Below are positions 17,968 through 34,642 of a DNA stretch of 60,172 nucleotides, in pieces. Source of the DNA: Subtercola boreus (lineage in GTDB: Bacteria > Actinomycetota > Actinomycetes > Actinomycetales > Microbacteriaceae); the NCBI RefSeq assembly GCF_003399625.1, contig NZ_NBXA01000012.1, positions 1-60,172 on the forward strand, written 5' to 3'. Every line of letters begins with the position of its first letter. Positions within the stretch are counted from its first letter, which is position 1. The notes beneath the pieces were generated by a model. The model did no database searches and had not been told where the DNA came from. It saw only the letters and a list, made by a program, of their open reading frames with translations. Made by a program: the position numbers and the translations under genes.

Positions 17968-18003
17968 TTGGTATTACGAATTAAACTAGTTGGGATCACG
18001 AAT
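17968..18003. promoter_or_regulatory. direct-repeat operator and promoter of the marR/oxidoreductase pair
   Basis: TTGGTATTACGAAT (17968-17981) and TTGGGATCACGAAT (17990-18003) are direct repeats 22 bp apart, two helical turns, with 12 of 14 identities. The second repeat contains the likely -35 (TTGGGA, 17990-17995), 17 bp from the -10 TAGACT at 18013-18018. The ATG of marR follows 6 nt later. A bound repressor would block its own promoter. Confidence 0.65.
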
Positions 18004-18012
18004 CACGTCAAG

Positions 18013-18018
18013 TAGACT
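18013..18018 (+). promoter_or_regulatory. -10 hexamer of the leaderless marR promoter
   Basis: TAGACT, 17 bp after TTGGGA and 6 nt before the ATG at 18025. Confidence 0.6.
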
Positions 18019-18024
18019 CCAGCC

Positions 18025-18453: not shown

Positions 18454-18560
18454 CAGGGCGCACCGGATACACTGTGGCGTGCGTGTGGCAGTGGTGCCAC
18501 GTACCGGGCGCTCAGAATCGAAGGATCCACCTCCGTGGTGGGCCGTCGGATGGGAAGACT

Positions 18561-19148
18561 ATGGACGCGTTCCTTTCACACACCGGTATTGCTGCACCGC
18601 TTCGACGAAGCAACGTCGACACCGACCAGATCCTGCCGGGCAAGTACCTGAAGCGAATCACCCGCACCGGCTTCGAAGACGCGCTCTTTGCCGAGTGGCG
18701 CGGCGACAGCGATTTCGTGCTGAATCTGCCGCCGTATCTCGGCGCCTCGATCCTGGTCGCCGGACCGGATTTCGGCACCGGTTCCTCCCGCGAGCACGCG
18801 GTGTGGGCGTTGCAGGACTTCGGCTTCCGCGTTGTCGTGTCCCCCCGCTTCGGCGACATCTTCTTGAGCAATGCGGGCAAGTCCGGACTTCTCGCGGCGC
18901 TGGTCACCGCGGAAGGCAGCGAGACGCTCTGGCGGGCTGTGGAGGCAGAGCCCGGCCTGGCCCTGACGGTCGATCTCGAAAAGCAGACCATCGACGCGCC
19001 CGGGGTCACGGTTCCTTTCACCATCGACAGCTACACCCGCTGGAGGATGATGAACGGCCTGGACGACATCGCGATCACGCTTCAGAGCAATGGGGAGATC
19101 GACGCCTTCGAGCGGCAGCGCCCGGCATACAAGCCGTCGCTGAGCTGA
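18561..19148 (+). CDS. leuD: 3-isopropylmalate dehydratase small subunit (LeuD) paralogue
   Basis: A 195-aa swivelling domain of an aconitase-type hydro-lyase. It has [29 protein letters not shown], the [19 protein letters not shown] signature and a [15 protein letters not shown] region. The substrate-loop region reads [10 protein letters not shown] where I would expect II-P-A-V-F-LKRV in leucine-pathway LeuD of this group (recalled, not aligned). No leuC is adjacent. The only leuC-like gene in the window is 11 kb downstream in a catabolic operon. It may therefore be the small subunit of that enzyme rather than a leucine-biosynthesis protein. A TACACT hexamer near 18469 suggests its own promoter and an approximately 80-nt leader. 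The start at 18561 follows GGGAAG. Confidence 0.85.
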
Positions 19149-19204
19149 ACCCTCCCGAAGGCTGAACGCTCAGGTCGAGTTCGCATCCGCCGATGGGGTA
19201 ATCA

Positions 19205-20092
19205 CTACGCCCCACCGGGAAACATGCCTGATCTCCCGAGCATCGCCTCAGGATGGATTCCGAGCGCGGACGTGACGAAGCGGGAAGCTGTGAGCAGGCC
19301 CGGGAACGACAGCCCGGTCGGGATACCACTTCGCTCGGCGAGATAGTAGAGGTCCTCGGTCGCGATGTTCCCGGTCGCCGCGGGGGCGAAGGGGCATCCA
19401 CCGATACCGCCGCTCGAGGCATCGAGGCCCTCCACGCCCAGCTCCAGTGCTTCCGCGGCATTTGCATATCCGGTGTTCCGCGTGTTGTGCAGATGCAGGC
19501 GCAGGGGGAGGGTGGTCAGGAGCCGACTGGCCGTGACGAGGCGTCGCACGTCTGTCGGTACAGCGACGCCGATGGTGTCGGCGAGGGCGATCTCGTCGAG
19601 GTCGTGGTGACCGAGCTGTTCGACGATGCCGGTGACGCGGTCCGCGGGCACTTCGCCCTCGAACGGGCATCCGAAGGCAGCCCCGATCGTCACGCTCACG
19701 CGCAGTCCGGCGTTCTTCAGCAGGGGAACGATGTGGTCGAGCGCCCGGAGGGAGTCTGCGGTCGACATGCCCTGGTTCCGCAGGGAGAACGTATCGGTCG
19801 CCACGATCACGATGTTCGCCTCGTCCACGCCCGCATCCACCGCCCGGCGAGCACCGAAGTCGTTCAGAACGAGACCGATGTAGCTCGCGCCCCGGTCGCG
19901 GGGTACGGCCGACATCACCGCCTCGGCGTCTTTCATCTGCGGCACACGGTCGGCTTTGGCAAAACTCACCGCTTCGATGCGGCGAAGCCCCGCGTCGAGC
20001 AACGCGTGAATGTACTCGACCTTGATGGCGGTGGAAAGGATCTTGCTCTCGTTCTGCAGGCCGTCTCTGGGTCCGACCTCAATGATCTCCAT
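19205..20092 (-). CDS. hydroxymethylglutaryl-CoA lyase-type aldolase
   Basis: A 295-aa DRE-TIM metallolyase that cleaves 3-hydroxy-3-methylglutaryl-CoA or a related 3-hydroxyacyl-CoA. It starts MEIIEVGPRDGLQNE with the catalytic Arg-Asp (residues 8-9). It has VSFAKADRVPQMKDAE, metal ligands in LHLHNTRNTGYAN and the HMG-CoA-lyase signature GGIGGCPFAPAATGNIATEDL with the active-site Cys. All catalytic residues are present. It is convergent with leuD and divergent from the GntR gene, sharing the operator region with it. It probably acts on the acyl-CoA made by the CoA-transferase of the divergent operon. The frame upstream of the ATG at 20092 is not homologous. Confidence 0.9.
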   Translation of the reverse strand: MEIIEVGPRDGLQNESKILSTAIKVEYIHALLDAGLRRIEAVSFAKADRVPQMKDAEAVMSAVPRDRGASYIGLVLNDFGARRAVDAGVDEANIVIVATDTFSLRNQGMSTADSLRALDHIVPLLKNAGLRVSVTIGAAFGCPFEGEVPADRVTGIVEQLGHHDLDEIALADTIGVAVPTDVRRLVTASRLLTTLPLRLHLHNTRNTGYANAAEALELGVEGLDASSGGIGGCPFAPAATGNIATEDLYYLAERSGIPTGLSFPGLLTASRFVTSALGIHPEAMLGRSGMFPGGA

Positions 20093-20197
20093 GCTTATTC
20101 CTATCACGGAGCCGGAACTCGGGAAAGGCAAAAAGCATGCAACTGATCGTTAAGAGTATGCAATCTGTCCGAAACACTTGCCAACTAGACATGAACA

Positions 20198-20223
20198 TGA
20201 ACTAATTGGATGCAATTAGTTCA
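20198..20223. promoter_or_regulatory. perfect palindromic operator (GntR type)
   Basis: TGAACTAATTG (20198-20208) and CAATTAGTTCA (20213-20223) are exact reverse complements with a 4-bp spacer. It is an AT-rich island in GC-rich DNA, between the divergent HMG-CoA-lyase and gntR genes. It is a strong candidate binding site for the GntR protein encoded 22 bp downstream. Confidence 0.85.
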
Positions 20224-20245
20224 TCGACGAACCGGAGAAAATGCA

Positions 20246-20902
20246 ATGACGCAGTTTGATTCAGCCCTGAATCAGCTTCGAGAGCGCCTGCTCTCGGGTT
20301 TCTACTCGCCCGGGGTTGCTCTGACTGCTGCAGATCTCGCCGAAAGCCTCGGCATGAGCCGCACGCCCGTTCGGGAGGCGCTTCGAACGCTCGCCTCCGA
20401 AGGCCTCGTCGAGATGGAAATGAATCGCGGAGCGCGCGTCACCGTCTGGGACGACGAGAAACTCGCCGTGGTCTTCGACATCCGTTCGCTGCTGGAGGGG
20501 CTTGCCTGCCGCCGTGCTGCTGAGCGCGCCGAAGCTCACGACCTCGATGAACTCGATGCCCTCGCCCAGCGCATCCTGGCCAAAGGTGAGCCGGGCCCCG
20601 ACCGCGACGAAGATGCCGTGCAGAGCCTGAACTCGGAATTCCACAACGGAATCCTGCGCATCGCCGACAGCCCCATGCTCGAAACGGCCATGCACGGAGT
20701 CGTGCATGCCGCAGTGCTGGCGAGAACGCGGGGGTCGTACACAGACGAGGAACAGCGCCGCTCCTCCCTGCATCACCTCGAGATCGTGGCGGCACTCCGA
20801 AGCGGTGATGCCAACTGGGCGGAGAGCGTCATGCACAGTCACCTCGCTCAGGGCCGTATTGCAGCGCTCCGAGCCCGCAACGAGAGTGAGGCCGCAGGAT
20901 GA
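20246..20902 (+). CDS. GntR-family regulator (FadR/FCD subfamily)
   Basis: A 218-aa regulator. It has an N-terminal winged helix with LNQLRERLLSG, ADLAESLGMSRTPVREALRTL (recognition helix) and LVEMEMNRGARV. A C-terminal all-helical FCD ligand domain follows, with metal-ligand-type residues in SEFHNGIL and SSLHHLEIVAALR. The start at 20246 has GGAGAAA upstream. An earlier in-frame ATG at 20210 lies inside the palindrome and is unlikely. It overlaps the CoA-transferase gene by 4 bp, so it heads the catabolic operon and probably autoregulates. The ligand is likely an acidic intermediate of the pathway. Confidence 0.92.
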   Translation: MTQFDSALNQLRERLLSGFYSPGVALTAADLAESLGMSRTPVREALRTLASEGLVEMEMNRGARVTVWDDEKLAVVFDIRSLLEGLACRRAAERAEAHDLDELDALAQRILAKGEPGPDRDEDAVQSLNSEFHNGILRIADSPMLETAMHGVVHAAVLARTRGSYTDEEQRRSSLHHLEIVAALRSGDANWAESVMHSHLAQGRIAALRARNESEAAG

Positions 20903-22110
20903 CCGATGCAACCGATGGGCGGATGGCCCTGGATGATCTCCGGGTGATCGAATTGGGCCAATTGCTGGCAGGTCCTTTCTGTGGACAACTACTCGGTGAC
21001 TTCGGCGCGGATGTCATCAAAGTCGAAGCGCCCGGCAAGGGCGATCCGATTCGGCAGTGGGGCCAGGCAAAGGCCGATGGCCACTCGCTGTGGTGGCCGG
21101 TGCTCGGGCGCAACAAGCGGACCATCACGCTCAACCTCCGTGAGAAGGACGGGCAGGACGTGCTTCGACTGCTCGTTGCGGAGGCCGACGTGCTGCTGGA
21201 GAACTTCAGGCCGGGAACTCTCGAGCGCTGGGGGCTGTCGCCCGATGAACTCTGGGAGATCAACCCCCGTCTGATCATCACGCGGGTGAGCGGGTACGGG
21301 CAGACGGGCCCCTACGCCGCCCGGGCGGGCTTCGGATCGGTGGGGGAGGCGATGGGCGGGATCCGTTACGTGACGGGATCCCCCGAGACCGCTCCATCGC
21401 GTGCGGGAATCTCCCTCGGCGATGAGCTCGCGGCGGTCTTCGCGTGCATCGGAACTCTGGCGGCGCTGCACGACAGGGGGCGCACCGGCCGCGGCCAGGT
21501 CGTGGACTCCGCGATCTACGAAGCGGTGTTCGCCATGATGGAATCGCTCATACCGGAGTGGCAGATTGCCGGCTACACGAGAGAGCGCACCGGAGCGACC
21601 CTTCCCGGTGTCGCCCCGAGCAACGTCTACCCGACGCGTCGAGGCGAGATGGTGCTGATCGCAGCGAACCAGGACTCGGTGTTCGGGCGGCTCTGCACGG
21701 CAATGGGCCGGCCTGAGCTGGCAACCGACGAACGTTTCGCGACGCACAACGCTCGGGGCGAGAACATGAAAGAGCTCGACGATCTCGTTGCCGGTTGGAC
21801 AGCGACGCACGAGCTTGACGATGTGCTCACGAGGATGCACGAAGCGGGTATCCCTGCCGGGCTCATCTACACGGCGAAAGACATGCTGAGCGACCCGCAC
21901 TTCGCCGCCCGCGATGCCATCGTCACCCTCGCCGACAAGCATTTCGGCGAGATCTCGATGCAGAGCACTTTTCCGCGCCTCTCGGCGAGCCCGGGGCGCG
22001 TACGCCACACGGGCCGGGAGATGGGCGAGGACAACGAAGACGTGTACGGCCACTTGCTGGGGCTGGGCACAGAAGCCATCGCGCGACTACGCGCCGACGG
22101 AATCATTTAG
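20899..22110 (+). CDS. class III CoA-transferase (CaiB/BaiF family)
   Basis: A 403-aa enzyme that moves CoA between carboxylic acids. It has DLRVIELGQLLAGPFCGQLL, FGADVIKVEAPGKGDPIR, NFRPGTLERWGL, SGYGQTGPYAARAGF and the catalytic Asp in SLGDELAAVFA. C-terminal PSNVYPTRRGEMVLIAAN and AGIPAGLI segments are as in the family. It is translationally coupled to gntR by an ATGA overlap. It may activate a dicarboxylate (for example a citramalate- or methylglutarate-like acid) for the HMG-CoA-lyase-type enzyme encoded divergently (inference). Confidence 0.92.
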   Translation: MTDATDGRMALDDLRVIELGQLLAGPFCGQLLGDFGADVIKVEAPGKGDPIRQWGQAKADGHSLWWPVLGRNKRTITLNLREKDGQDVLRLLVAEADVLLENFRPGTLERWGLSPDELWEINPRLIITRVSGYGQTGPYAARAGFGSVGEAMGGIRYVTGSPETAPSRAGISLGDELAAVFACIGTLAALHDRGRTGRGQVVDSAIYEAVFAMMESLIPEWQIAGYTRERTGATLPGVAPSNVYPTRRGEMVLIAANQDSVFGRLCTAMGRPELATDERFATHNARGENMKELDDLVAGWTATHELDDVLTRMHEAGIPAGLIYTAKDMLSDPHFAARDAIVTLADKHFGEISMQSTFPRLSASPGRVRHTGREMGEDNEDVYGHLLGLGTEAIARLRADGII

Positions 22111-22122
22111 AGAGGAATCACC

Positions 22123-24180
22123 GTGGCCTATCGAGTCGGAGTGGACGTGGGTGGAACATTCACCGATGTGCTGCTGATCAATGAAGAATCGGGCAGGACC
22201 TGGCGATCGAAAGTTCCTTCCACTCCGGAGGACCAGTCGATCGGGGTGCTGTACGGCATCCAGAAGGCGTGCCGGGAGGCGGGCATCGACCAGGGCGAGG
22301 TCTCCCATGTTCTGCACGGCACGACGGTGGCCACCAACGCCGTACTCGAGGGAAAGGGCGCGCGTGTCGGGCTCATCACCACGCGCGGTTTCCGCCAGGT
22401 GCTCCAGATCGCTCGCTCCTACGTGCCCGGCGGCCTCGCCGGCTGGATCGTCTGGCCCAAACCGACTCCTCTTGCGAGTCTCGAGAACACGATCGAGGCC
22501 GAGGAGCGCACCTCGACGCGGGGCGAGATCATCGAACCGCTCGACGAAGACGATCTGCGCGCCAAGCTGCAGACCCTTCGAGCCAACGACGTGGCATCCG
22601 TCTGCATCAGTCTGATCAACTCGTTCGCCAATGCCGAGCACGAACTTCGTGTCGCGGCGATCGTCAAGGAGGAAATGCCGGGGATCCCGGTCTCCCTGTC
22701 GACGACGGTGCTCCCGGAAATGCGTGAGTACGAGCGCACCCTCACCACGGTCGCCAACGGTTACGTGCAGGTGCAGGTCGGCAACTACGTGCGCAATCTC
22801 GAGGAGAAGATCCGTGCAGGTGGACTCGATGCCGAGCTCGCTCTGCTCCGAAGCGATGGTGGTCTCACCAGCCCTGCTGCCTCGATCGAGCGACCCGTCT
22901 CGCTGCTCATGTCGGGACCTGCGGGTGGTGTCACCGGTGCGACCTGGGCGGCCAAGGCTTCACAGCAGGGCAACTTTCTCTCGTTCGACATGGGTGGAAC
23001 ATCCACCGATGTCGCCATGGTCATGGACTACAAACCCAAGATCGCCAAAGACACCCAGGTCGGTGACCTGAAGATTCGCGTCAGCTCCGTCGACGTACGC
23101 ACTGTCGGCGCCGGAGGTGGCTCGATCGCCCACGTTCCCGAATTGACGCGTGCACTTCGGGTCGGGCCCCAGTCGGCAGGCGCGGTCCCCGGCCCGGCCT
23201 CCTACGGGAAGGGTGGAACGCTCCCCACGGTGACGGATGCCAACGTCGTGCTCGGTTACCTCCCGGAGGAACTCGCCGGTGGTGAGATCCGGATGGATGT
23301 GGCTGCCGCCCGCACTGCCGTCGCCAGCCTTGCGGAGGCGGCGGGCCTGCCCGACATCGAGACCGCAGCGGCCGGCGTCATCGCCGTCGTCAACGAGAAC
23401 ATCCTCGGTGCCATCCGTCTGGTCTCGGTGCAGCAGGGCTATGACCCGAGGGACTTCGCCCTCATCGCCTTCGGCGGGGCAGGGCCGCTGCATGGCAACG
23501 CGCTCGGCAAGCTGCTCGGCTCCTGGCCGGTGATCATTCCGCCGTCGCCCGGTGTGCTGAACGCCTACGGAGACGTCATGACGAGCTATCGGGAAGAGGC
23601 CGCGCGTACTCTCGTGCGTTCGCTCAGCAGCATGTCGGATACCGAACTCGGCTCACTGTTCGAGCAACTGCGGGTCACCGCGACGGACCGGCTCATTGTG
23701 CAGGGTGTGGCGGCAGACGAGTTGAGCTACGCCTACAAGGCCGATGTCCGCTATCACGGGCAGGGTTTCGAACTCACGATCGAACTGCCGACGGACGGTC
23801 TGGGGGAGGGCGTCACAGACACCCTCGCCTCGGGATTCGATGCGGAGCACCAGCGGCTCTTCTCCTTCCTGCTCGAGGCTGATCACGAGATCGTCTCGCT
23901 GACCGTCGTGGCGATCCACACGGCCACCGAGATCCCGAGCGTTCCCATCGAACAGGGCACCGGAGACATCTCGGCTGCTCTCATCCGCACGACCGAGATC
24001 TGGGTCGAGGGCAAGCGTCATGAGAGCGCCCTCTACGATCGTGGCCTGCTGAGGGCGGGAGACGTCGTCTCCGGCCCCGCCATCATCGTCGAGATGGACT
24101 CGACGGCACTCGTCCTCCCCGACCACGAAGCCACCGTCGATCCCAGCGGATGTCTTCTCATCAACCCGACAAGGAGCTGA
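22123..24180 (+). CDS. hyuA: hydantoinase/oxoprolinase A subunit (HyuA)
   Basis: A 685-aa ATP-dependent cyclic-amide hydrolase subunit of the ASKHA fold. It has the phosphate-binding motif VGVDVGGTFTDVLL at the N-terminus, HGTTVATNAVLEGKGARVGL, the second nucleotide motif FLSFDMGGTSTDVAMV (about residue 290) and GAGGGSIAHV. Family members open hydantoins, 5-oxoproline, lactams or carboxylate ketones at the expense of ATP. The GTG start follows AGAGAGG. HyuB follows after 3 bp. The substrate is not determinable, but neighbours suggest a ring amide whose product carries a free amide or carbamoyl group. Confidence 0.92.
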   Translation: MAYRVGVDVGGTFTDVLLINEESGRTWRSKVPSTPEDQSIGVLYGIQKACREAGIDQGEVSHVLHGTTVATNAVLEGKGARVGLITTRGFRQVLQIARSYVPGGLAGWIVWPKPTPLASLENTIEAEERTSTRGEIIEPLDEDDLRAKLQTLRANDVASVCISLINSFANAEHELRVAAIVKEEMPGIPVSLSTTVLPEMREYERTLTTVANGYVQVQVGNYVRNLEEKIRAGGLDAELALLRSDGGLTSPAASIERPVSLLMSGPAGGVTGATWAAKASQQGNFLSFDMGGTSTDVAMVMDYKPKIAKDTQVGDLKIRVSSVDVRTVGAGGGSIAHVPELTRALRVGPQSAGAVPGPASYGKGGTLPTVTDANVVLGYLPEELAGGEIRMDVAAARTAVASLAEAAGLPDIETAAAGVIAVVNENILGAIRLVSVQQGYDPRDFALIAFGGAGPLHGNALGKLLGSWPVIIPPSPGVLNAYGDVMTSYREEAARTLVRSLSSMSDTELGSLFEQLRVTATDRLIVQGVAADELSYAYKADVRYHGQGFELTIELPTDGLGEGVTDTLASGFDAEHQRLFSFLLEADHEIVSLTVVAIHTATEIPSVPIEQGTGDISAALIRTTEIWVEGKRHESALYDRGLLRAGDVVSGPAIIVEMDSTALVLPDHEATVDPSGCLLINPTRS

Positions 24181-24183
24181 CTC

Positions 24184-26052
24184 ATGGCACGGATCATCGA
24201 AACCAACACCGAACCGCTCGCGCCGGTGGATGTCGACGTCATCACGCTCGACCTCATTGAGAACAGTCTGCGGAACGCCCGCTACGAGATGGACGAGGTG
24301 CTCTTCCGCACGGCGCTGTCCCCGGGCATCCGCGAGCAGCACGACGAGTTCCCCCTGATCGCCGACGCGCAGGGTCGCATGGTGGTCGGCCAGTTCGGAC
24401 TGTCGGTACCCGCACTGCTCGGCAGGTTCACCGACACGATCGAGGAGGGCGACGTTCTCCTCACCTCCGATCCCTACAGCTGTGACGGCGCGATCAGCCA
24501 CGCCAACGACTGGCTCGTCGTCACCCCGATCTTCTTCGACGGCCGGCTGGTCGGCTGGGCCGCGATGTTCGGTCACATGACGGATGTCGGCGGCAAGACC
24601 CCCTCGAGCATGCCGACCGATGCGTTGACCATCTTCGAAGAAGGTGTCGTCATCCCGCCGTTCAAGCTCTACAAGGCGGGAACCCTCAACAAGGATCCGC
24701 TCGACATCATCCTGAACCAGGTGCGCCAGCCGCAGTGGAACCGGGCAGATCTGAACGGTCTCGTCGCAGCAACGCGCATTGCGGGAAAGCGCGTACAGGA
24801 GATGTGCGAGCGTTTCGGCGTCGACACCTACGCCTCCGGTCTCGACGCACTGCTCGAGCGCAACTACCGTGCCATGAAGATCCTGCTCTCGACCATCTTC
24901 GAAGACGGTGAGAGCATCTCGTTCACCGACTACATCGACGACGACGGAGTGGGCAATGGGCCGTTCCAGCTCACCCTGACGCTGACGAGGAACGGCGACA
25001 CCGTCACCCTCGACTTCGCGGGAAGTTCCTCGCAGGCGCCGGGACCGATCAACTACTACCTCAACGAGTCCCTGGTGAAGATGTTCTTCGGCATCTACAT
25101 CATCACCGTGGCCGACCCGCAGATCCTGTGGAACGACGGGTTCTATCCGCTGATCGACGTGAACATTCCGGAAGGCTCTTTCTGGAAGCCGAAGTACCCG
25201 GCAGCTCTGAACGCGCGCAACCACGGAATCGGTCGGCTGTTCGACCTGTTCGGGGGTCTGCTCGGACAGAAGACGCCGGATCTGTTGAACGCTGCCGGAT
25301 TCTCCTCCTCGCCTCACTTCATGTACTCCGGGCACCACTCGGAGGGGGAGAAGAAGGGTGAGTGGTTCCAGCTCTACTCGATCGGTTTCGGTGGTATCCC
25401 CGGTCGACCCATCGGTGACGGCCCCGACGGTCACTCGCTCTGGCCGTCATTCATGAACATTCCGTGTGAGTACCTCGAGAGCTATTACCCAATGCGGATC
25501 GAGAAGTGGGAGACCATCGCCGATTCGGGCGGAGCGGGCCTTCACCGGGGCGGAAATGGCGTCGAGGTGGTCTACCACTTCCTCGAGAGCGGCACCATCA
25601 CCATCCATGACGACCGGTGGCTCACCTACCCCTGGGGAGTGAACGGCGGCCACCCGGGCGAGCGGTCCCGCAAGTGGCTCGACCATCTCGACGGATCGGT
25701 GGAGGTCCTGCCGAGCAAGATCCACGACGTCCCCGTTCGCGCAGGGGAGTCGTTGCATTTCGGCACGTGGGGCGGCGGCGGATGGGGCGACCCGTTGCTC
25801 CGCGATCCCGAACTGGTGGCGACCGAGGTGCGGGAAGGCCTCGTCACCCAGGTGGGTGCCCGGGCGTATGGAGTCGTCGTGACGGATGCGGGTCGGGCCG
25901 ATGCCGATGCCTCTGCAGCACTCCGAGCCGAGCTCCGTTCGACTCGAGGCGAACTCCCGCTCTTCGATCGTGGGCCGGAGCTCGAGATCATCCTTGCCAA
26001 CGCTCTCGAGGAGACGGGACTGCCGGCGCCGAAGATGCCGGCCGCCTCATGA
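24184..26052 (+). CDS. hyuB: hydantoinase/oxoprolinase B subunit (HyuB)
   Basis: A 622-aa partner of HyuA. It begins with DVITLDLIENSLRNARYEMD, followed by REQHDEFPLIADAQGR, LTSDPYSCDGAISHANDW and FGHMTDVGGKTPSSMP, the latter two typical metal-site segments of the B subunit. The C-terminal part has SGGAGLHRGGNGVEVVYHF and GTWGGGGWGDPL. It forms the hydrolase with HyuA and overlaps the amidase gene downstream by 4 bp. Confidence 0.92.
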   Translation: MARIIETNTEPLAPVDVDVITLDLIENSLRNARYEMDEVLFRTALSPGIREQHDEFPLIADAQGRMVVGQFGLSVPALLGRFTDTIEEGDVLLTSDPYSCDGAISHANDWLVVTPIFFDGRLVGWAAMFGHMTDVGGKTPSSMPTDALTIFEEGVVIPPFKLYKAGTLNKDPLDIILNQVRQPQWNRADLNGLVAATRIAGKRVQEMCERFGVDTYASGLDALLERNYRAMKILLSTIFEDGESISFTDYIDDDGVGNGPFQLTLTLTRNGDTVTLDFAGSSSQAPGPINYYLNESLVKMFFGIYIITVADPQILWNDGFYPLIDVNIPEGSFWKPKYPAALNARNHGIGRLFDLFGGLLGQKTPDLLNAAGFSSSPHFMYSGHHSEGEKKGEWFQLYSIGFGGIPGRPIGDGPDGHSLWPSFMNIPCEYLESYYPMRIEKWETIADSGGAGLHRGGNGVEVVYHFLESGTITIHDDRWLTYPWGVNGGHPGERSRKWLDHLDGSVEVLPSKIHDVPVRAGESLHFGTWGGGGWGDPLLRDPELVATEVREGLVTQVGARAYGVVVTDAGRADADASAALRAELRSTRGELPLFDRGPELEIILANALEETGLPAPKMPAAS

Positions 26053-26717: not shown

Positions 26718-27736
26718 CGAAGGTCGCAGAACCCTCCCCGCCAGCGACGGACCTTGAGCCCCGGGGATCCCGCGCGTCGAGATTCAGCCCGCTCGGGCTG
26801 CTCGAGAAGAACGGCGTGCTGATCGCCTGGCTCATCGTGATCGGAGTGTTCTCCCTCCTTCGCCCGAACACCTTCCCCACCTCGGGGACAGCTTCGGTCG
26901 TCTTCGGCACGCAGACCGTGATCCTGATCGTGACGATGGGCCTCCTGCTCGCGCTCGCGGTGGGCGAGATCGACCTGTCAGTCGGCAGTGTGGTCGGATT
27001 CGGGGCCGTCCTGCTGGTGGTCTTCAACGGCCAGCTCAAGCTGCCGATCGGTGTCGCCCTTGTGCTCACACTGGTCTGCTGCGCGCTGGTCGGCGTGGTC
27101 AATGCGCTGCTCGTGGTTGTGGTCGGGGTGCAGTCGATCATCGTCACACTGGGTATGGCGACGCTCCTGACCGGATTCACGCTCGCGGTCTCGGGCTCGA
27201 AGGTCGTGACCGGGCTGGATGTCTCTGTTGTGCAGTTCGTCGCTACCCGATGGCTGGGCATCCCGCTGCCCTTCTATCTCGGAGTCCTGCTGACCGTGGC
27301 GATCTGGTTCATCCTGCAGCACACACCGATCGGGCGCCGGATGGCGTTCGTCCTGGCGAGCCGGGAAGTGGCACGCCTTGCGGGGCTGCGAGTGAACCGC
27401 ATCCGTTTCGGCGCGCTGGTCTCCACGTCGCTCATCGCCGGGCTGGCGGGTGTCGTGCTCGCCTCGCAGAACGGAGCCGCCAACCCCCAGGCCGGTGCCT
27501 ACTACCTCCTGCCCGCCTTCGCAGGTGCCTTTCTCGGCTCCACCACCGTGCGACCGGGCCGGTTCAATGCGATCGGTACCTTCATCGCGGTCTACTTCCT
27601 GGTCACCGGCATCACGGGTCTTGTCTATCTGGGCTTCGCGGGCTGGCCTGAACAGGTCTTCTACGGAGCATCTCTCCTGGTCGCAGTCACGCTCAGCCAC
27701 ATCGCCGGCCGAAGAGCGCGCGGCGGCGGCTCCTGA
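26714..27736 (+). CDS. ribose-type ABC transporter permease
   Basis: A 340-aa inner-membrane protein of the BPD_transp_2 (RbsC) class with eight to ten hydrophobic segments. Family stretches are LLALAVGEIDLSVGSVVGF, VGVQSIIVTLGMATLLTG, the cytoplasmic loop IGRRMAFVLASREVARLAGL and TTVRPGRFNAIGTFIAVYF. It is the single permease, so the channel is probably a homodimer. The N-terminal 25 residues are cytoplasmic. It overlaps the amidase gene by 4 bp and is followed by the binding protein after a 129-bp leader. Confidence 0.92.
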   Translation: MTKVAEPSPPATDLEPRGSRASRFSPLGLLEKNGVLIAWLIVIGVFSLLRPNTFPTSGTASVVFGTQTVILIVTMGLLLALAVGEIDLSVGSVVGFGAVLLVVFNGQLKLPIGVALVLTLVCCALVGVVNALLVVVVGVQSIIVTLGMATLLTGFTLAVSGSKVVTGLDVSVVQFVATRWLGIPLPFYLGVLLTVAIWFILQHTPIGRRMAFVLASREVARLAGLRVNRIRFGALVSTSLIAGLAGVVLASQNGAANPQAGAYYLLPAFAGAFLGSTTVRPGRFNAIGTFIAVYFLVTGITGLVYLGFAGWPEQVFYGASLLVAVTLSHIAGRRARGGGS

Positions 27737-27865
27737 CCGCATCGCACGGAGGCTGAACCTCAGGTCGGCACCGCACAAGCCAGCACCTCGCACACCAGCA
27801 CCACAGCACTACATCACTACATCACCTCCGCATTTCCTCAACCCACACCAATCACGGGAGTCACC
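27737..27865 (+). promoter_or_regulatory. C/A-rich, G-poor leader before the binding-protein gene
   Basis: From about 27770 to 27850 the plus strand is almost free of G, with repeats of the CACTACATCA kind (27807-27824). Such RNA is unstructured. It may raise translation or allow separate expression of the abundant binding protein inside the operon. No promoter could be assigned. Confidence 0.4.
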
Positions 27866-29014
27866 ATGCGCACCTTACGTAAACATTCCGCCGTCTTCGG
27901 CGTCGCCCTGGCCGCCACTGTCGCCCTGGCCGGGTGCTCCGGGGGTGGGACCGATACGAACGCGGCGCCCGCGGCCCAGGGCGACGCCGCCGGCATCGCG
28001 ACGGCACAGTCCAACCTCGACGCGTACCTCAACCCGCCCACCTGGCAGGGTCCGACCGATCCGGTGAAGACGAGTGGGCTCAGCGGGAAGAGGGTCGTCT
28101 ACATCAACGTGTCGAGCTCGATCCCTGTGCTGAAGTACTGGTCCGACACGTTGAAGGTCATTCTGAACGACACGGCTGGCGTGCAGCTCGAAGAGATCGA
28201 CGCCAAGGGCTCGGTGGACGAGGCGAACAAGGGCTTCCAGCAGGCCATCGCCTCCAAAGCCGACGTCGTCGTTCTCGTCGCACTCTTCCCCGACCTCTTC
28301 ACGCAGCAGATCGCTGCGGCTCACGCACAGGGCATGAAGGTGATCACCGCGCAGTCGGGAGTCCCCGGGGACATCTCGAAGGGCCAGGATGCTGAGGTCT
28401 CGTTCGACTACGTCAAGGTCGGCCAGCTCATCGCCGACTGGATGATCGTGGACTCCAAGGGCACCGGCAAAGCCACGATCTTCTCCTCCGACGACGTTCC
28501 GGCTTCGCAGCCTCAGGTCAATGGCACGAAGGACGAGGTCGCCAAGCTCTGCCCCGGCTGCGACGTGACCGTCAGCGATGTGCAGATCCCGCAGTGGGAG
28601 ACCGGCATTCCGACGGCGTTCCAGTCAGCGCTGAACACCGACCCCGACCGTACCTACTTCCTCCCGCTGTACGACGGACAGGGTCTGACCGGACTCAGCG
28701 CCATCCGTTCCGCTGGTGCGGGCGAGAAGGCGAACGTCGGTACATTCAATGCGACCCCAGGGATCGTGGATGGCCTCAACGACCCGACGAGCGGGCTCAA
28801 GCTCGACATCGGCGGTCACAACGAGTGGTGGGCCTACGCCATGGCGGACCAGATCTTCCGTGAGCTCAGCGGGACCGCACCTGTCGAGAACTACAACATC
28901 GGGCTCCGTGTCTTCGACCAGTCGAACAAGGACCTCATCACGGGCACGGATGAGTTCTCGTGGTACGACTACGACGGATACAAGGCGGAGTTCGCGAAGC
29001 TGTGGACTAAATAG
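27866..29014 (+). CDS. ABC transporter substrate-binding lipoprotein (RbsB-like)
   Basis: A 382-aa periplasmic-binding-protein type I lipoprotein. The signal peptide has lipobox LAGC with the lipidated Cys at residue 24, followed by a Gly/Ala-rich linker. The two-lobed domain starts at GKRVVYINVSSSIPVLKYW. It has EANKGFQQAIASKADVVVLV and a hinge region GKATIFSSDDVPASQPQVNG. It differs from sugar binders in that the pocket contains several aromatic residues (DIGGHNEWWAYAMADQIF), so a non-sugar ligand is plausible. It belongs to the importer of this operon. Confidence 0.9.
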   Translation: MRTLRKHSAVFGVALAATVALAGCSGGGTDTNAAPAAQGDAAGIATAQSNLDAYLNPPTWQGPTDPVKTSGLSGKRVVYINVSSSIPVLKYWSDTLKVILNDTAGVQLEEIDAKGSVDEANKGFQQAIASKADVVVLVALFPDLFTQQIAAAHAQGMKVITAQSGVPGDISKGQDAEVSFDYVKVGQLIADWMIVDSKGTGKATIFSSDDVPASQPQVNGTKDEVAKLCPGCDVTVSDVQIPQWETGIPTAFQSALNTDPDRTYFLPLYDGQGLTGLSAIRSAGAGEKANVGTFNATPGIVDGLNDPTSGLKLDIGGHNEWWAYAMADQIFRELSGTAPVENYNIGLRVFDQSNKDLITGTDEFSWYDYDGYKAEFAKLWTK

Positions 29015-29017
29015 CAC

Positions 29018-30550
29018 ATGGCGACCAACCCCGACCGGAGCAGCGCGCTCGTTGTCGATCACGTGTCGAAGACGTTCGGTTCCATCACTGTGCTGAACGA
29101 CGTGTCGTTCAGCATCGCCCGCGGCGAGACGGTGGGACTCATCGGTGAGAACGGTTCCGGCAAGTCGACCTTCATCAAAGTGCTCTCGGGCTTTCACGCT
29201 CCCGATCGGGGTGCCGTCGTGAGCATGGGGGAGCGCGACATCTCCGGGGTTCTCGCCGCGGGTCCGACACAGACCGGTCTCGGCTTCATCCATCAGGACC
29301 TCGCGCTCGTGGAGAACCTGACGATCGTCGAGAACCTCCGGATCTCCCAGTTCACGACAGGGCTGCTCGGTCGCATCCGGTGGAGGCAGGAAGAGCGAAT
29401 CGTCGCCGGGATGATCGCCAAGGTCGGTCTCACCATGTCGCCGACAACGCTTGTCAGTGACCTCAGCGTGACCGATCGTGCGCTCGTGGCCATTGCCAGG
29501 GGGCTGGCCGAGATCGACTCTGCCGGAACCGACCGCCCCCGCCTGCTCGTGCTCGACGAGCCGACCGCCTACCTGCCGGCGGAAGGCGTCGCCCGGCTCT
29601 TCGCCGCCGTTCGACGACTCACCGAAGACGGCACCAGTATCCTCTTCGTCTCGCACCGGCTCGACGAGGTGATCGACCACTGTGAGCGTGTGATCGTCTT
29701 CCGCGGCGGAAATCTCGTGGCCGACGAGCTGACAGAGGGTCAGACCGAGAGAGATCTCGTGACGCTCATGCTCGGTCGGTCCCCCGAAGGGCTGTACCCC
29801 GACTACAACGAGCGTTCGGGTGAAACCGTTCTGACCGTCGAGAAGCTTTCGGGCGGAACAGTCGAAGAGGTCGGCTTCAGTGCTCGTGCGGGGGAGATCG
29901 TCGGTTTCATCGGACTGCCGGGCGGCGGCTACGAGCACATTCCGTATCTGCTGTCGGGTGCGTCACGACCCAGGTCCGGCTCGATCACCATCGACGGAGC
30001 GAGGGTCGACGCACGCGCGCAGACACCGCAATCCGCCATTGCGCGCGGTATTGCACTGCTGCCCGCCGACCGGAAGAACCGCAGTGGCGCTCAGACCCTG
30101 AGCCTCGCCGAGAACGTCACCATCGCCACTCTCTCGAAGTTCCGTGCACGAGGCGTCATGCTCGATGCTGCCCGTGAGCGCACCGTGGTTCGCGAGCAGA
30201 TCGACAACTATTCCATTCAGGCCCCGCACCCGGATGCTGCGCTGTCGAGCCTCAGCGGTGGTAACCAGCAGAAGGCGCTTCTCGCCAAATGGGTGATTGC
30301 CGAGCCGCGGGTCTATGCACTGCACGAACCGACGCAGGGGGTCGATGTCGGTGCCAAACGCGACGTCTTCCGCCAGATGGCCGGCCTCGCCGCCGAGGGC
30401 ACGGTGCTGGTGATCGCCAGCGTCGAATACGAAGATCTCGCCAGACTGTGCACTCGTGTGCACGTGGTGAAAGCAGGGAGGATCACGTTGACCATTGAGA
30501 GAGACGACTTGAGCGCCCACGCGCTCGCCGTTGCGGTGCACGAACGATGA
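29018..30550 (+). CDS. ABC transporter ATPase, RbsA type (two NBDs)
   Basis: A 510-aa protein with tandem ATP-binding domains. Domain 1 has [19 protein letters not shown] and [16 protein letters not shown]. Domain 2 has the family's degenerate Walker A ([19 protein letters not shown]) but keeps the signature [16 protein letters not shown] and [16 protein letters not shown]. This asymmetry is normal for RbsA-like proteins. It is 3 bp after the binding-protein stop and overlaps leuC by 4 bp. Confidence 0.92.
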
Positions 30551-31962
30551 CCGGCACGACCCTGGTCGAGAAGATCTGGCAGAAACAGGCCATCCCCCGC
30601 GAGGGCGACCGTCCCGATCTGCTCTTCATCGATCTGCACTTCCTGCACGAGGTCTCGAGCCCCCAGGCGTTCGACGGGCTGCGGTTGTCAGGCCGGACAG
30701 TGCGGCGTCCCGAACTCACTCTCGCCGTCGAGGACCACAACGTCCCCACGGACACATTCGAGTTGCGTGAGCCGCTCGGTCGCATCCAGGTCGAGGCCCT
30801 CCGAAAGAATTGCGCGGAGTTCGGCATCCGATTGCGGAGCCTCGGGGCTACCGGCCAGGGGATCGTGCACATCATCGGTCCGGAGACGGGGCTCACCCAG
30901 CCCGGGATGACGATCGTCTGTGGCGACAGTCACACCTCCACCCACGGTGCTCTCGGGGCACTCGCCTTCGGCATCGGCACGAGCGAGGTCGAGCATGTGC
31001 TCGCCACACAGACGCTGCCCCAGGCGCGCCCTCTGACGATGGCTGTCAACGTTGTCGGCTCTCTGTCCAACGGTGCCACGGCGAAGGATCTCGCTCTCGC
31101 GCTCATCGCCCAGGTCGGAACAGGAGCGGGAGCGGGTCACATCGTCGAATATCGCGGTCCGGCTATCCGTGCGCTCTCGATCGAGGCGCGGATGACTCTC
31201 TGCAACCTCAGCATCGAGTGGGGTGCTCGAGCGGGTCTCGTCGCGCCCGACGAGACCACCTTCGCCTATGTGCACGGGCGGGAGCACGCTCCCACCGGAG
31301 CCGCGTGGGATGAGGCGGTCGCCGGGTGGTCGCAGTTGTTCAGCGATGAAGACGCCGTGTTCGACACCGAAGTCACGATCGATGCCGACCTCGTGCAGCC
31401 GTTCGTCACCTGGGGAACGAACCCCGGGCAGGGCGTGCCGCTGGACGGCACCGTGCCCGATCCGGGGATCCTGGTCGATGACGCCCTGCGCGCTGCAGGC
31501 GAGCGGGCCCTGGAGTACATGGGGCTGGTGCCGGGCACCCGCATGCGCGACATCCCGGTCGACACGGTCTTCATCGGCTCGTGCACCAACAGCCGCATCG
31601 AAGACCTCCGGCTCGCCGCCGGAGTGCTCAAGGGCAGGAGCGTCGCCGACGGTGTCCGGATGCTGGTCGTTCCCGGGTCGCTCGATGTGAAGAAGCATGC
31701 GGAGGAGGAGGGGCTCGACCAGATCTTCCTCGCCGCCGGCGCCGAGTGGCGCTCAGCCGGATGTTCGATGTGCCTCGGCCTGAACGAAGACCGCGGGAAG
31801 CCCCAGGAGCGAATCGCTTCGACCTCCAACCGGAACTTCGAGGGCCGCCAGGGCCCCGGTGCCCGCACTCACCTGGTGTCGCCCGGCGTCGCAGCGGCGA
31901 CGGCAGTGCGCGGAACGCTCTCGAGCCCCGCCGACCTCTCCAACGGACGGGACGACCGATGA
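30547..31962 (+). CDS. leuC: aconitase-superfamily hydro-lyase large subunit (LeuC paralogue)
   Basis: A 471-aa [4Fe-4S] dehydratase subunit. The cluster cysteines are in [12 protein letters not shown] and SAGCSMCLG. It also has [26 protein letters not shown] and [19 protein letters not shown]. In leucine-pathway LeuC the segment after the last Cys pair normally reads G-M/L-N-P-D-x-L; here it is [12 protein letters not shown]. It is embedded in a catabolic operon between a transporter ATPase and an alcohol dehydrogenase (4-bp overlaps both sides), so it is probably a malate-, citramalate- or dimethylmalate-type dehydratase working with the LeuD at 18561. Confidence 0.88.
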
Positions 31963-33167
31963 TCGACGAAGATGCAACGTCCCGGCGAGGCACCGTGCGT
32001 GGCGCTGTGCTCAGCCGCATCGGATCGAAGCGACCCTACTCAGTCAGCCGGCCACTCGAGATTCGCAGGGTGCAGCTGGATGCGCCCGGAGCGACCGAGA
32101 TCGAGGTGCGCATCGAGGTCGCCAGCCTCTGTCACTCCGATCTCTCGGTCGTGTCGGGAGTGCGCCCGCGGCCCGTACCCATGCTGCTCGGTCACGAGGC
32201 CGCCGGAATCGTGGAAGTGGTGGGCTCTGAAGTCGTCGGTGTGAGCATCGGTGACCGGGTGGTCATGACCTTCTTGCCGCGGTGTGAGGAATGCGCCGCC
32301 TGCGCGAGTGGTGGCGCGAGCCCCTGCGAGCGGGGGAGCGCCTCCAACGGCGAGGGGACACTGCTCTCCGGTGGCATCCGGATCCACGACGACGAGGGTG
32401 CGATCTTCCACCATCTCGGGGTTTCGGGCTTCGCCGAACGTTCCGTGGTCGACTACCGTTCGGTTGTCGTCGTCGATCAGGATGTCCCGCCTGACGTCGC
32501 GGCTCTGATGGGCTGCGCTGTTCTCACCGGGGGCGGTGCCGTTCTCAACACCGGCCAGCTCGTCAGCGGTGAACGACTCGCCGTGATGGGTCTCGGCGGA
32601 GTGGGAATGGCCGCCCTCCTCGTCGGTCTGGCGCACGACGGGGTGACGGTGATCGGCATCGATGTGCACGCCGACAAGCTCGAGACCGCACGCGGGCTCG
32701 GGGCGCACGAGGTGTACACACCCACGGAAGCGGCGGAACTCGGCATCACCGCCGATCTCGTCGTCGAAGCCGTCGGCCGGGCTGTGGCGTTCGAGGCCGC
32801 CGTCGCCATGACGGCGATCGGCGGCAGAACCGTCACTGCGGGTCTCCCGGCCCCGGACGATCTCGCCAGCATCTCGCCTCTTGCGCTCGTGGCCGGCGCG
32901 CGCCGGATCCTCGGCAGCTACCTCGGTGGCTCGGTTCCGAAGCGTGACATTCCCCGGTTCGTCGACCTCTGGCGGGCCGGTCGGCTTCCGGTCGAGAGCC
33001 TGGTCTCGTCGGAGGTGAGCCTCGAGAACATCAACGGCTCCATGGATGCTCTGGCCGATGGCCATGTGCTCCGCCAGATCATCCGATTCGACCAGGCGCC
33101 GACGCAGGCACCCCCAGACTCCATTCTCACCACCGAAGCACCGAACCAAGAGAGTATCCAGATATGA
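31959..33167 (+). CDS. zinc-dependent alcohol dehydrogenase (MDR family)
   Basis: A 402-aa class III-like alcohol dehydrogenase. The catalytic-zinc ligands are in [12 protein letters not shown] (Cys) and [14 protein letters not shown] (His-Glu). A structural-zinc-type Cys-rich lobe reads [15 protein letters not shown]. The Rossmann site is [22 protein letters not shown], with [10 protein letters not shown] suggesting NAD preference (Asp after the second strand). It would oxidise or reduce a hydroxymethyl/aldehyde intermediate. It overlaps leuC and the lyase gene by 4 bp each. It has a short polar C-terminal tail. Confidence 0.9.
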
Positions 33168-34048
33168 ACGCCAGCGAGAGATTCCGTCATCGGCTTGCCT
33201 CCATCGAGACCGATCCGCTTCTCATCCCGGGTGGAGGAACACCGCTCGAGGCCCGGGTGGCCGAGCAGTCGGGGTTCGACGCGTTCTACCTGAGCGGTTA
33301 CGCCGTTGCCGCTTGGCGGCACGGTCTGCCCGACATCGGTCTGTTGGGTGCGCGAGAGACTCTGGATGCCCTGGCTGCTGTGCGGCGGGTCACCGAGTTG
33401 CCCCTCATCTGCGATGCCGACACCGGGTACGGAGATGTGATCGCGGTGACAGAGAATCTTCGCGCCATGGAAGCAGCCGGTGCCTCGGCGATCCAGATCG
33501 AAGACCAGGTGTGGCCCAAGAAGTGCGGTCACATGAGCGGCAAGGAGGTCATTGCGTTCGACGAGGCTGTGCGCAAGGTGGCGGCCGCGGTGCAGGCCCG
33601 CCGCAATCCCGACACCGTCGTCATCGCTCGAACCGATTCGCTCGCACCGCGAGGCTTGGATGAGGCAATCCGGAGAGGAGAGGCTTTCGCTGACGCGGGC
33701 GCAGACATCGTCTTCATCGATGCTCCCGAAGCGGTGGAACAGCTCGCCACCATCGGGTCGGCGTTCGGCCCGATGACCATGGCGAACATGAGCGAGGGTG
33801 GACGCACGCCCGCGCTGAGCCTTGCCGAGCTTCACCAGAAGGGATTCGGGGTCGTCATCTACCCCACGACGACGCTCCGCATCGCCGCGCGCGAGTTCGG
33901 GGACTTCTACAAAGATCTTGCTGCTGACGGGTCCTCCGCCTCGTGGATGGACCGAATGCACGGCCTCGACGGTCTCAATGCCATCGTCGACCTGGACCGC
34001 TACCTGGCGATCGACGCCCGCTTCCAAGGACAGAACGCGACCACGTAG
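33164..34048 (+). CDS. isocitrate lyase/PEP mutase-superfamily C-C lyase
   Basis: A 294-aa TIM-barrel lyase. It has LICDADTGYGD (metal-binding Asp residues), IQIEDQVWPKKCGHMSGKEV containing the KKCGH motif with the catalytic Cys of true lyases, VVIARTDSLAPRG and GADIVFIDAPEA. With the KKCGH motif it should cleave a substituted malate or isocitrate (2-methylisocitrate, 2,3-dimethylmalate) to pyruvate or glyoxylate plus a short acid, rather than form P-C bonds. It is the last gene of the operon and is followed by a hairpin. Confidence 0.9.
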   Translation: MNASERFRHRLASIETDPLLIPGGGTPLEARVAEQSGFDAFYLSGYAVAAWRHGLPDIGLLGARETLDALAAVRRVTELPLICDADTGYGDVIAVTENLRAMEAAGASAIQIEDQVWPKKCGHMSGKEVIAFDEAVRKVAAAVQARRNPDTVVIARTDSLAPRGLDEAIRRGEAFADAGADIVFIDAPEAVEQLATIGSAFGPMTMANMSEGGRTPALSLAELHQKGFGVVIYPTTTLRIAAREFGDFYKDLAADGSSASWMDRMHGLDGLNAIVDLDRYLAIDARFQGQNATT

Positions 34049-34065
34049 TCGACCCCCCCCAGGCA

Positions 34066-34111
34066 GGTGGGTGGGTTCGGTGGCGTCCGGTCGCTGCGGA
34101 ACCCACCCACC
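34066..34111 (+). terminator. hairpin terminator of the catabolic operon
   Basis: GGTGGGTGGGTTC (34066-34078) and GAACCCACCCACC (34099-34111) are exact reverse complements around a 20-nt loop, 18 bp after the lyase stop. No T-run. A run of eight C lies just before the stem. Confidence 0.8.
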
Positions 34112-34185
34112 GATTCTCTGCACGCCACACCGGTCTGCTGCCGACGGGATGGCATACGATCAGGCCCGAGGCAAGGAGACCTGAG

Positions 34186-34602: not shown

Positions 34603-34642
34603 GCCGTCTGCCGGATGCTCGGAGCAGCCGGAGCCGCTACGG

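Follow-up and report, generated by a model that had tools for sequence, protein, structure and literature searches.

A recurrent acquired gene cassette in Subtercola boreus with a predicted role in cyclic imide or amide breakdown

We analyzed a 60,172-nucleotide stretch of Subtercola boreus DNA (the window) and found at positions 18561-34048 an acquired gene cassette that probably encodes a catabolic route for a small cyclic imide or amide with a side chain; we put the probability of this reading at roughly 60%. The cassette comprises LeuD, a divergent HMG-CoA-lyase-type (HMGL) gene, and a tight operon in the order GntR-CaiB-HyuA-HyuB-isochorismatase-sugar-type ABC-LeuC-Zn-ADH-ICL-superfamily lyase. 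The substrate and catalytic roles given below are predictions from family membership and comparison.

In the route that we propose, the sugar-type ABC importer would take up the cyclic compound, HyuAB would use ATP to open the ring to a half-amide, as its family suggests, and the isochorismatase-fold hydrolase would free ammonia, leaving a substituted C4 diacid that would be maleate-like in the window. LeuCD would then hydrate the diacid to 2- and/or 3-substituted malates, a step suggested by its family and by a LeuD/DmdB-type replacement at one related locus (L233). Two finishes are envisaged: the ICL-superfamily lyase would split the free malates into a 2-oxo acid or glyoxylate and a short acid, or CaiB and the HMGL would split them as CoA esters into a 2-oxo acid and an acyl-CoA.

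Results

Layout and acquisition of the cassette

Gene models for the cassette came from our own codon-model script and gave the following features:

18455-34129, no strand: full span of the block that same-genus genome G007 lacks (blastn)
18561-19148, + strand: LeuD-type small hydratase subunit, pathway copy (NF002458, 260.6 bits, cut-off 167; TIGR00171, 190.8, cut-off 116; Aconitase_C)
19205-20092, - strand: HMG-CoA-lyase-type enzyme (PF00682, 126 bits; NF004283, 268.9 bits, cut-off 246)
20246-20902, + strand: GntR/FCD regulator (PF00392, PF07729)
20899-22110, + strand: class III CoA-transferase, CaiB type (PF02515, CoA_transf_3, 410 bits)
22123-24180, + strand: HyuA, ATP-dependent cyclic amide hydrolase subunit (PF01968, Hydantoinase_A, 283 bits; PF05378; PF19278)
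24184-26052, + strand: HyuB subunit (PF02538, Hydantoinase_B, 472 bits)
26049-26717, + strand: putative isochorismatase-fold half-amide amidohydrolase (PF00857, 136 bits; D39/K127/C160)
26714-27736, + strand: ABC permease, ribose/sugar type (PF02653, BPD_transp_2)
27866-29014, + strand: substrate-binding lipoprotein with a sugar-binding fold (PF13407, Peripla_BP_4)
29018-30550, + strand: ABC ATPase with two ABC stretches (PF00005 twice)
30547-31962, + strand: LeuC-type large hydratase subunit, pathway copy (TIGR00170, 680 bits, cut-off 560; Aconitase, 560 bits)
31959-33167, + strand: zinc alcohol dehydrogenase (PF08240 and PF00107, ADH_N/ADH_zinc_N)
33164-34048, + strand: ICL/PEP-mutase-superfamily lyase, a proposed alkylmalate lyase (PF13714, PF00463; KKCGH)

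Pfam domain matches located every gene named in the original prediction, and the tight, overlapping operon that it described, headed by GntR and CaiB, is likewise present: between GntR and the lyase, six of the ten gene junctions overlap by 4 bases, and the remaining four are +12, +3, +129 and +3. LeuD does adjoin the HMGL gene as predicted, with the correction that it lies on the + strand, convergent with that gene and outside the operon. Promoter and terminator scans of the cassette gave no excess over shuffled sequence.

The cassette is an inserted block. By blastn, window positions 15013-18454 and 34130-40853 match two stretches of G007 that adjoin each other with a slight overlap, which leaves a block of ~15.7 kb missing there. 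The site was seen without the block in four of the eight same-genus genomes examined, showing that the block was acquired. Together with a near-identical gene order at another locus (L094; see below), the absence of the block from the same site in relatives indicates that the grouping is more than chance.

Predicted ring opening and nitrogen release

HyuA and HyuB belong to the HyuAB/oxoprolinase superfamily, with the defining domains complete in both subunits (PF05378, PF01968, PF19278 and PF02538). Caprolactamase CapAB, as outlined in PMC6061476 and PMC8453981, is a HyuAB-type enzyme that opens a cyclic-amide ring with ATP. The cassette subunits differ from it in their downstream genes and in scoring 508 and 206 against the CapA/CapB models, below the cut-off of 1000, which rules out a caprolactamase identity.

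The isochorismatase-fold protein retains D39, K127 and C160, which we take to be the catalytic triad of its family and which bear out the complete triad claimed for it; in a 16-row alignment (A3), every row has K127 and C160, and at least 90% of rows have D39. The Asp-Lys-Cys triad and sequence similarity place it in the N-carbamoylsarcosine/maleamate amidohydrolase clade. Its nearest PDB chains, almost equally similar, are N-carbamoylsarcosine amidohydrolase 26st (153 bits) and the putative isochorismatase 3ot4/3uao (144 bits), presumably a maleamate amidohydrolase.

The first of these names, and that of the PDB chain nearest to HyuB, an N-methylhydantoinase, would suit a function of the creatinine/N-methylhydantoin type, in which HyuAB opens a hydantoin, the isochorismatase-fold enzyme decarbamoylates the product to an amino acid, and the other genes are passengers. 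The creatinine route itself uses an ATP-dependent hydantoinase and then N-carbamoylsarcosine amidohydrolase, two enzyme families that the cassette also has, acting in the order proposed for it. Unlike that route, the cassette has no sarcosine-handling gene and goes on to LeuCD, lyase, CaiB and HMGL; all of its genes can be named and, as had been noted, sarcosine oxidase is not among them. Moreover, an amino acid product requires neither the CaiB and HMGL genes that lie near the amidase in 54 of 80 loci nor the LeuCD and lyase genes present in others, and we consider this explanation quite improbable.

The binding protein of the importer has no match among PDB sequences at E<=1e-5, and its structural model (pLDDT 80.7) matches sugar-binding proteins at no more than 20% identity among the best 50 rows; a fold search for the ligand returned general sugar-binding folds only. 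The zinc alcohol dehydrogenase scores best against the NCBIfam model for NDMA-dependent alcohol dehydrogenase (238, below the cut-off of 440).

A second LeuCD pair

LeuC and LeuD of the window pass the curated leucine-biosynthesis models TIGR00170 and TIGR00171, and LeuC belongs to the usual bacterial type, scoring below the DmdA/HacA cut-offs (NF001614, 334 against 385; TIGR01343, 307 against 386). A housekeeping leuC and leuD, adjoining each other, lie elsewhere in the same genome (G000:C7), and the window LeuC falls outside a branch of 19 housekeeping-type LeuC rows with 100/98 support. Two LeuC genes occur in two of 12 genomes of the genus (E<=1e-60). The second leuCD and the LeuC tree rule out a plain leucine-synthesis copy, a function that would have told against the original prediction.

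The lyase and the CoA-linked enzymes

The lyase carries KKCGH, as had been claimed, and model scores and a tree spoke against a plain methylisocitrate lyase, an outcome that would have told against the original prediction. It scores below both PrpB models (TIGR02317, 274 against 354; NF008455, 217 against 353). In a tree flagged for long branches and unsettled bootstrap, 23 of the 24 rows that we labelled PrpB-like lie on one side (100/100), apart from the window lyase, and L025 lies on the other. On model cut-offs and tree together we rejected PrpB.

The nearest solved structure is petal death protein 1zlp, both by sequence (195 bits, 37% identity) and by fold (rank 1). This plant protein, which presumably acts on 2-alkylmalates, has NM.EGG and SGY in common with the window lyase, whereas the 23 PrpB-like rows have NMTEFG and SGA; alphaproteobacterial plasmid lyases have SGA and lack SGY. 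From its resemblance to 1zlp and, in sequence or fold comparison, to 3fa3, we propose the lyase as a putative 2-alkylmalate cleaver. The arginine of YPTTTLR was uninformative as a third-carboxylate marker, since it occurs both in the PrpB-like rows and in the majority of actinobacterial module lyases.

These motifs bear on a pyridine or glutaconimide substrate of the isonicotinate kind. On that reading, ring opening and deamidation of a six-membered imide would give an aconitate-like tricarboxylate, which would then be hydrated to an isocitrate-like acid and cleaved by the lyase. Molybdenum hydroxylase genes near two relatives (L117 and L140) and a TcuA-like flavoprotein, named for tricarballylate, in alphaproteobacterial cassettes would fit such a substrate. 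Against it, the window cassette has no molybdenum hydroxylase, its lyase lacks NMTEFG and resembles petal death protein, and the genome holds a third aconitase-family gene besides the two LeuC. We give this substrate little credence.

For the alternative finish, the HMGL passes the HMG-CoA lyase subfamily model NF004283 and is the only match in its own genome at E<=1e-25; CaiB scores best against succinate--glutarate CoA-transferase (284 bits, under the cut-off of 750). We propose a 2-hydroxy-2-alkyl-succinyl-CoA, citramalyl-CoA-like, as the HMGL substrate. The motif H.H[ND]TR occurs in 66 of 69 HMGL matches of the fetched stretches; we dropped it as proof of a citramalyl-CoA substrate because its arginine also occurs in other HMGL genes of the relatives and in two PDB chains.

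Recurrence in other genomes

HyuAB, isochorismatase, LeuCD and lyase occur together in 12 of 117 stretches (a set that includes four duplicates of others): the window and 11 other loci (L092, L094, L138, L149, L170, L173, L175, L177, L178, L179 and L182). The carriers are Microbacteriaceae, Rhizobiaceae, roseobacters, Azospirillum and Roseomonas. L094 is arranged much like the window, differing in a GntR gene before LeuD and an Amdase-family gene after the lyase, and Azospirillum has GntR, five importer genes and lyase-HyuB-HyuA-cysteine hydrolase-FAD oxidoreductase-LeuC-LeuD. FAD proteins of the Sulfitobacter and Roseomonas cassettes are flavocytochrome c/TcuA-like, under the model cut-offs. 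In some alphaproteobacterial cassettes the flavoprotein could make a double bond, so that a saturated ring would be possible there.

At L233, HyuAB, alcohol dehydrogenase (46%), lyase (51%) and importer are kept and LeuCD is of the hacA/DmdAB subfamily (NF001614, 514, cut-off 385; TIGR02087 LeuD/DmdB, 173, cut-off 109). This contig, which ends in HyuB, showed no amidase. That the hydratase at L233 comes from another subfamily (LeuD/DmdB) speaks for hydration ahead of cleavage as the chemistry that the loci have in common.

In a commoner version, present at 54 of the 80 named loci of the amidase scan, the neighbors of the amidase include CaiB and HMGL; the count was made by tblastn, as seven of the 80 were without a modelled amidase. 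Across these 80 loci, three have both the lyase and CaiB/HMGL, 10 the lyase only, 56 CaiB or HMGL only, and 11 neither, so the two look like mostly alternative finishes. HyuAB and the Amdase-family gene are likewise mostly alternatives (both, 2; HyuAB only, 55; Amdase only, 7; neither, 16), and LeuC is absent from the fetched stretch in 54 of the 59 loci with CaiB or HMGL. Since the loci are related, Fisher p values overstate these associations. A tree of 104 amidases (seven of 111 sequences were left out as too short) holds four supported independent contrasts for lyase versus CaiB/HMGL and four for lyase versus LeuC; their direction mostly agrees with the association, and they are too few to reach significance.

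These counts also bear on whether the cassette combines two neighbors with separate functions, one route made up of CaiB, HMGL, HyuAB and amidase, and a second, unrelated one in which LeuCD, ADH and lyase would handle an ABC-imported sugar acid. Each half is found without the other, and at L038 the lyase and alcohol dehydrogenase lie beside an MFS transporter in a stretch that lacks an amidase. However, the amidase accompanies either half, since in L091, L093, L138, L149 and the plasmid loci it lies with LeuCD and lyase in the absence of CaiB/HMGL; in addition, L094 nearly repeats the window's order, and L100 holds CaiB-HyuA-HyuB-amidase-importer-LeuC together. There is, in our view, only a small chance that the functions are separate.

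Among 20 stretches around the best Actinomycetota relatives of the lyase, HyuAB occurs with LeuCD in one (L233), isochorismatase in L243 (44%), L244 (39%) and L237 (31%), and HMGL in L234, L235 and L242. The unit persists in several distant bacteria, against the possibility raised with the original prediction that the genes are never kept together, although most of the looser lyase relatives in Actinomycetota sit outside it.

Discussion

Comparative evidence fits the predicted order of opening, deamidation, hydration and cleavage, with CoA-transferase and HMGL handling a branched acid, and refines it to probable alternative finishes. This logic is well supported by the comparison, whereas the particular substrates put forward with it, tetrapyrrole maleimides and N-methylhydantoin, gain no support from any of the tests. 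The parallel originally drawn with Eubacterium barkeri, whose nicotinate fermentation ends with dimethylmaleate hydratase DmdAB and 2,3-dimethylmalate lyase, stands at the level of function: both would use a two-subunit aconitase-family hydratase and then an ICL-superfamily lyase on an alkylmalate. It does not extend to the type of LeuC in the window, which is bacterial LeuC and not DmdA, although the L233 hydratase is LeuD/DmdB-type. The window also differs in its predicted ring opening by HyuAB and isochorismatase, and the upstream nicotinate genes (enamidase, mutase) are absent among the cassette genes. The citramalyl-CoA route of itaconate and citramalate catabolism uses a CoA-transferase and a lyase, much as CaiB and a lyase may split 2-hydroxy-2-alkylsuccinyl-CoA here; the cassette version is distinguished by its tie to HyuAB and the amidase.

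The nicotinate pathway of Aspergillus nidulans, as far as it is set out in the part of PMC9304392 on HxnM and HxnN, converts a cyclic imide to a half-amide, from which an amide hydrolase frees the nitrogen to leave an acid, the same two steps that we infer for the cassette. The enzymes differ in their likenesses: that account compares HxnM with a peptidoglycan-deacetylase-like imidase and describes HxnN as unlike the amidases of bacterial nicotinate routes. A hydratase-lyase finish is absent from that part of it. Neither HyuAB and isochorismatase with LeuCD and an ICL-type lyase nor the same pair with CaiB and HMGL appeared among top-ranked literature matches, in which subscription journals were thinly covered.

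A more specific and doubtful extension is that these loci encode an undescribed, widespread route for alkyl-substituted maleimides and succinimides, for example from the breakdown of chlorophylls, bilins and other tetrapyrroles, with interchangeable ring openers and hydratases and two interchangeable cleavages of the alkylmalate formed. If our main reading is right, the cassette would represent a modular catabolic pathway across Actinomycetota and Pseudomonadota, and the current annotations of its parts as hydantoinase, leucine biosynthesis, isocitrate lyase/PEP mutase and HMG-CoA lyase would be corrected. Such a pathway could account for part of the many HyuAB/isochorismatase clusters that lack an assigned substrate, and would bear on natural cyclic imides, a class whose microbial fate is poorly known.

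The cassette is an insert in the Subtercola boreus genome

The cassette lies in a draft genome of 4.12 Mb. Genes were called with a codon-model script and named from Pfam and NCBIfam, and 4-base overlaps occur at six of the ten junctions in the run from GntR to the lyase.

Features of the cassette and of its 3' flank
Cassette gene 1, plus strand: LeuD
Cassette gene 2, minus strand: HMG-CoA-lyase-type enzyme (HMGL)
Cassette genes 3 onward, plus strand: GntR, CaiB, HyuA, HyuB, isochorismatase-fold hydrolase (amidase), permease, binding protein, ATPase, LeuC, zinc alcohol dehydrogenase (Zn ADH), lyase
34186-34602: DUF1801 gene, directly 3' of the insert, also in the Subtercola genome G007
34664-34736: tRNA-Arg (tct), likewise immediately 3' of the insert and present in G007

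The cassette is an insert in this genome: the genes of both flanks are adjacent, with no cassette between them, in four of the eight Subtercola genomes examined (G203, G007, G248 and G153), and window positions 18454 and 34130 coincide upon alignment to G007. For G693 and G690, the left flank fell outside the stretch fetched for this comparison. About 8 kb of other DNA occupies the same site in G692 and G286 (stretches L231 and L232), and the site may therefore see frequent gene exchange. The MarR gene at window position 18025 is present in G007, and thus belongs to the backbone and not to the insert. A permease gene of the Cobalt type (PF09819) and a gene for a double-ABC ATPase (10162-12340) also lie in the shared backbone, upstream of the insert. 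The G+C content of the block is 0.649, compared with 0.691 and 0.672 in its flanks, and no integrase was found among the cassette genes. Relatives of the lyase at 55% or above occur in just four of the other 298 genomes in our family sample (G153, G046, G146 and G232).

Identities of the cassette enzymes

A role of LeuCD in leucine synthesis was rejected. Although the window LeuC scores above the cut-off of the bacterial LeuC model, it is a second copy that falls outside a branch of 19 housekeeping-type sequences (support 100/98); a single LeuC is found in 10 of 12 genomes of the genus (E ≤ 1e-60). We also rejected the identification of the lyase as PrpB, a plain methylisocitrate lyase: it fails the PrpB model and stands apart in the tree from 23 of 24 PrpB-like sequences, a label that we assigned to relatives of about 40% within the family. 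L025, labeled PrpB-like, falls on the window lyase's side of the tree, with long branches flagged by the program. Cassette-type lyases carry NM[SVA][ED]GG or a near variant, whereas the 23 PrpB-like sequences carry NMTEFG. The petal death protein has NMIEGG at this segment, and ranked first in a Foldseek search with the lyase model (pLDDT 90.3).

Tandem lyase paralogues occur in two loci from other genomes, L092 (15746-17494) and L090 (10938-12705). The segment matching window YPTTTLR ends in Phe in one member of each pair and in Arg in the other, a sequence difference that suggests two substrates. The amidase is intermediate between 3ot4, a maleamate amidohydrolase, and 26st, whose given name is N-carbamoylsarcosine amidohydrolase. 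Zn ADH and lyase genes occur together in the window, L038, L090-L094 and L233; the Zn ADH may therefore act on a side chain or product.

The unit recurs in other genomes and on plasmids

An amidase alignment was used to scan a collection holding one genome per species, and the best 80 of at least 586 relatives were kept. Among these best 80 loci, tblastn placed HyuAB nearby in 57 and both CaiB and HMGL in 54. L094 has nearly the window's gene order, differing by a GntR gene before LeuD and an Amdase-family gene after the lyase. L092 reads HyuAB-HMGL-LeuC-LeuD-HisDH-SDR-3HCDH-GntR-amidase-importer-ADH-lyase-lyase, and LeuCD-amidase-lyase occurs with HyuAB in L138 (Rhizobium) and L149 (Puniceibacterium).

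Several of these loci show further features. The L094 contig is labeled Planococcus, yet its cassette is Microbacteriaceae-like and its LeuC groups with Microbacteriaceae; similarly, L159, a metagenome-assembled genome labeled Klebsiella pneumoniae, carries a CaiB/HMGL/HyuAB/amidase version with which the label seems at odds. Molybdenum hydroxylase large-subunit genes lie beside CaiB/HMGL/amidase/Amdase loci in L117 (5558-7852) and L140 (5837-8272), a neighborhood suggesting upstream heterocycle hydroxylation in some versions. An 843-aa TonB-dependent receptor is encoded between HyuAB and the amidase in L109 (6145-8676), and genes of similar size lie near the amidase in L111, L155 and L168. 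HMGL-CaiB-amidase of L118 has an MmgE/PrpD gene, a PF04199 cyclase and another CaiB-like gene (40%) next to it, at 2928-6342; this PrpD may replace LeuCD as hydratase.

On plasmids, we examined nine hand-picked records of 61 matched by the lyase. In eight of them (L170, L173, L175-L179 and L182), LeuCD and a gene of the isochorismatase fold lie close to the lyase, and seven of the eight have HyuAB; L174 has neither. These eight are not independent, because three come from Sulfitobacter and two from Azospirillum. In Azospirillum, a GntR gene and an importer precede a single run of lyase-HyuB-HyuA-cysteine hydrolase-FAD oxidoreductase-LeuC-LeuD. The Sulfitobacter and Roseomonas FAD proteins resemble flavocytochrome c and TcuA, with scores below model cut-offs, and would convert a saturated to an unsaturated diacid. 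In L181 (Sulfitobacter sp. S190), the cassette shares its plasmid with bacteriochlorophyll genes and with a cluster containing a gene annotated as 6-hydroxynicotinate reductase.

A lyase search of Actinomycetota gave matches in 61 of 396 genomes, and we fetched the 20 best outside the window's own genome (36-51% identity, all outside its family). The original question of whether HyuAB, isochorismatase, LeuCD and lyase are conserved as a unit has a mostly favorable answer: the unit recurs in L092, L094, L138, L149 and on plasmids, although only one of these 20 stretches, L233, has HyuAB with LeuCD. Isochorismatase occurs in L243, L244 and, more weakly, L237 (31%), and HMGL in L234, L235 and L242, with CaiB (51%) also in L234. 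L245 has a DmdAB-subfamily hydratase alongside iron-sulfur and molybdopterin genes, which point to a different pathway. The LeuC-like and PrpD-like matches in L248 and L252 reach 28% only, and the remaining stretches showed no core genes beyond scattered weaker matches (for example CaiB, 35%, L236; TcuA, 25%, L241). The lyase family thus extends beyond the unit.

Cassette parts are exchanged among loci

Cassette parts are exchanged among loci. In the stretches fetched for Subtercola sp. Z020 and for Microbacterium sp. B19, an Amdase-family gene and an FAD monooxygenase (in Z020 nearest to PnpA and HspB) replace HyuAB, and the importer differs. L233 has a hydratase of the hacA/DmdAB subfamily, not bacterial LeuCD, together with HyuAB, an importer, ADH (46%) and lyase (51%); no amidase was seen on this contig, which stops within HyuB.

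Co-occurrence in the best 80 amidase loci (Fisher p ignores the kinship of these related loci)
Lyase and LeuC: both 7; lyase only 6; LeuC only 4; neither 63; p = 1e-4
Lyase and CaiB or HMGL: both 3; lyase only 10; CaiB/HMGL only 56; neither 11; p = 4e-5
HyuAB and Amdase: both 2; HyuAB only 55; Amdase only 7; neither 16; p = 0.002

A tree of 104 amidases gave 4, 4 and 5 supported independent contrasts for these pairs, respectively, mostly agreeing in direction and too few to reach significance.

A probable route for cyclic imide or amide breakdown

We rate the originally predicted route of ring opening, deamidation, hydration and cleavage as probable. In the most likely order, the substrate would be imported, its ring opened with ATP and the half-amide hydrolyzed, after which a substituted maleate would be hydrated to a malate and cleaved as free acid or CoA ester. 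The presence of two finishes in one cassette would make sense if LeuCD, an isomerase in its known family, yielded both 2- and 3-substituted malates, with CaiB/HMGL taking the former and the lyase the latter. As a candidate substrate, a maleimide or succinimide bearing a methyl or alkyl group is compatible with every step. For L092, the sugar-type importer fold and the HisDH, SDR and 3HCDH genes hint at a hydroxylated side chain. Tetrapyrrole-derived maleimides are possible candidates, with nothing here singling out tetrapyrroles. Among the papers listed in searches of open-access literature, we found no description of the cassette. Overall, the cassette is real, acquired, recurring and catabolic, and its pathway logic is probable.
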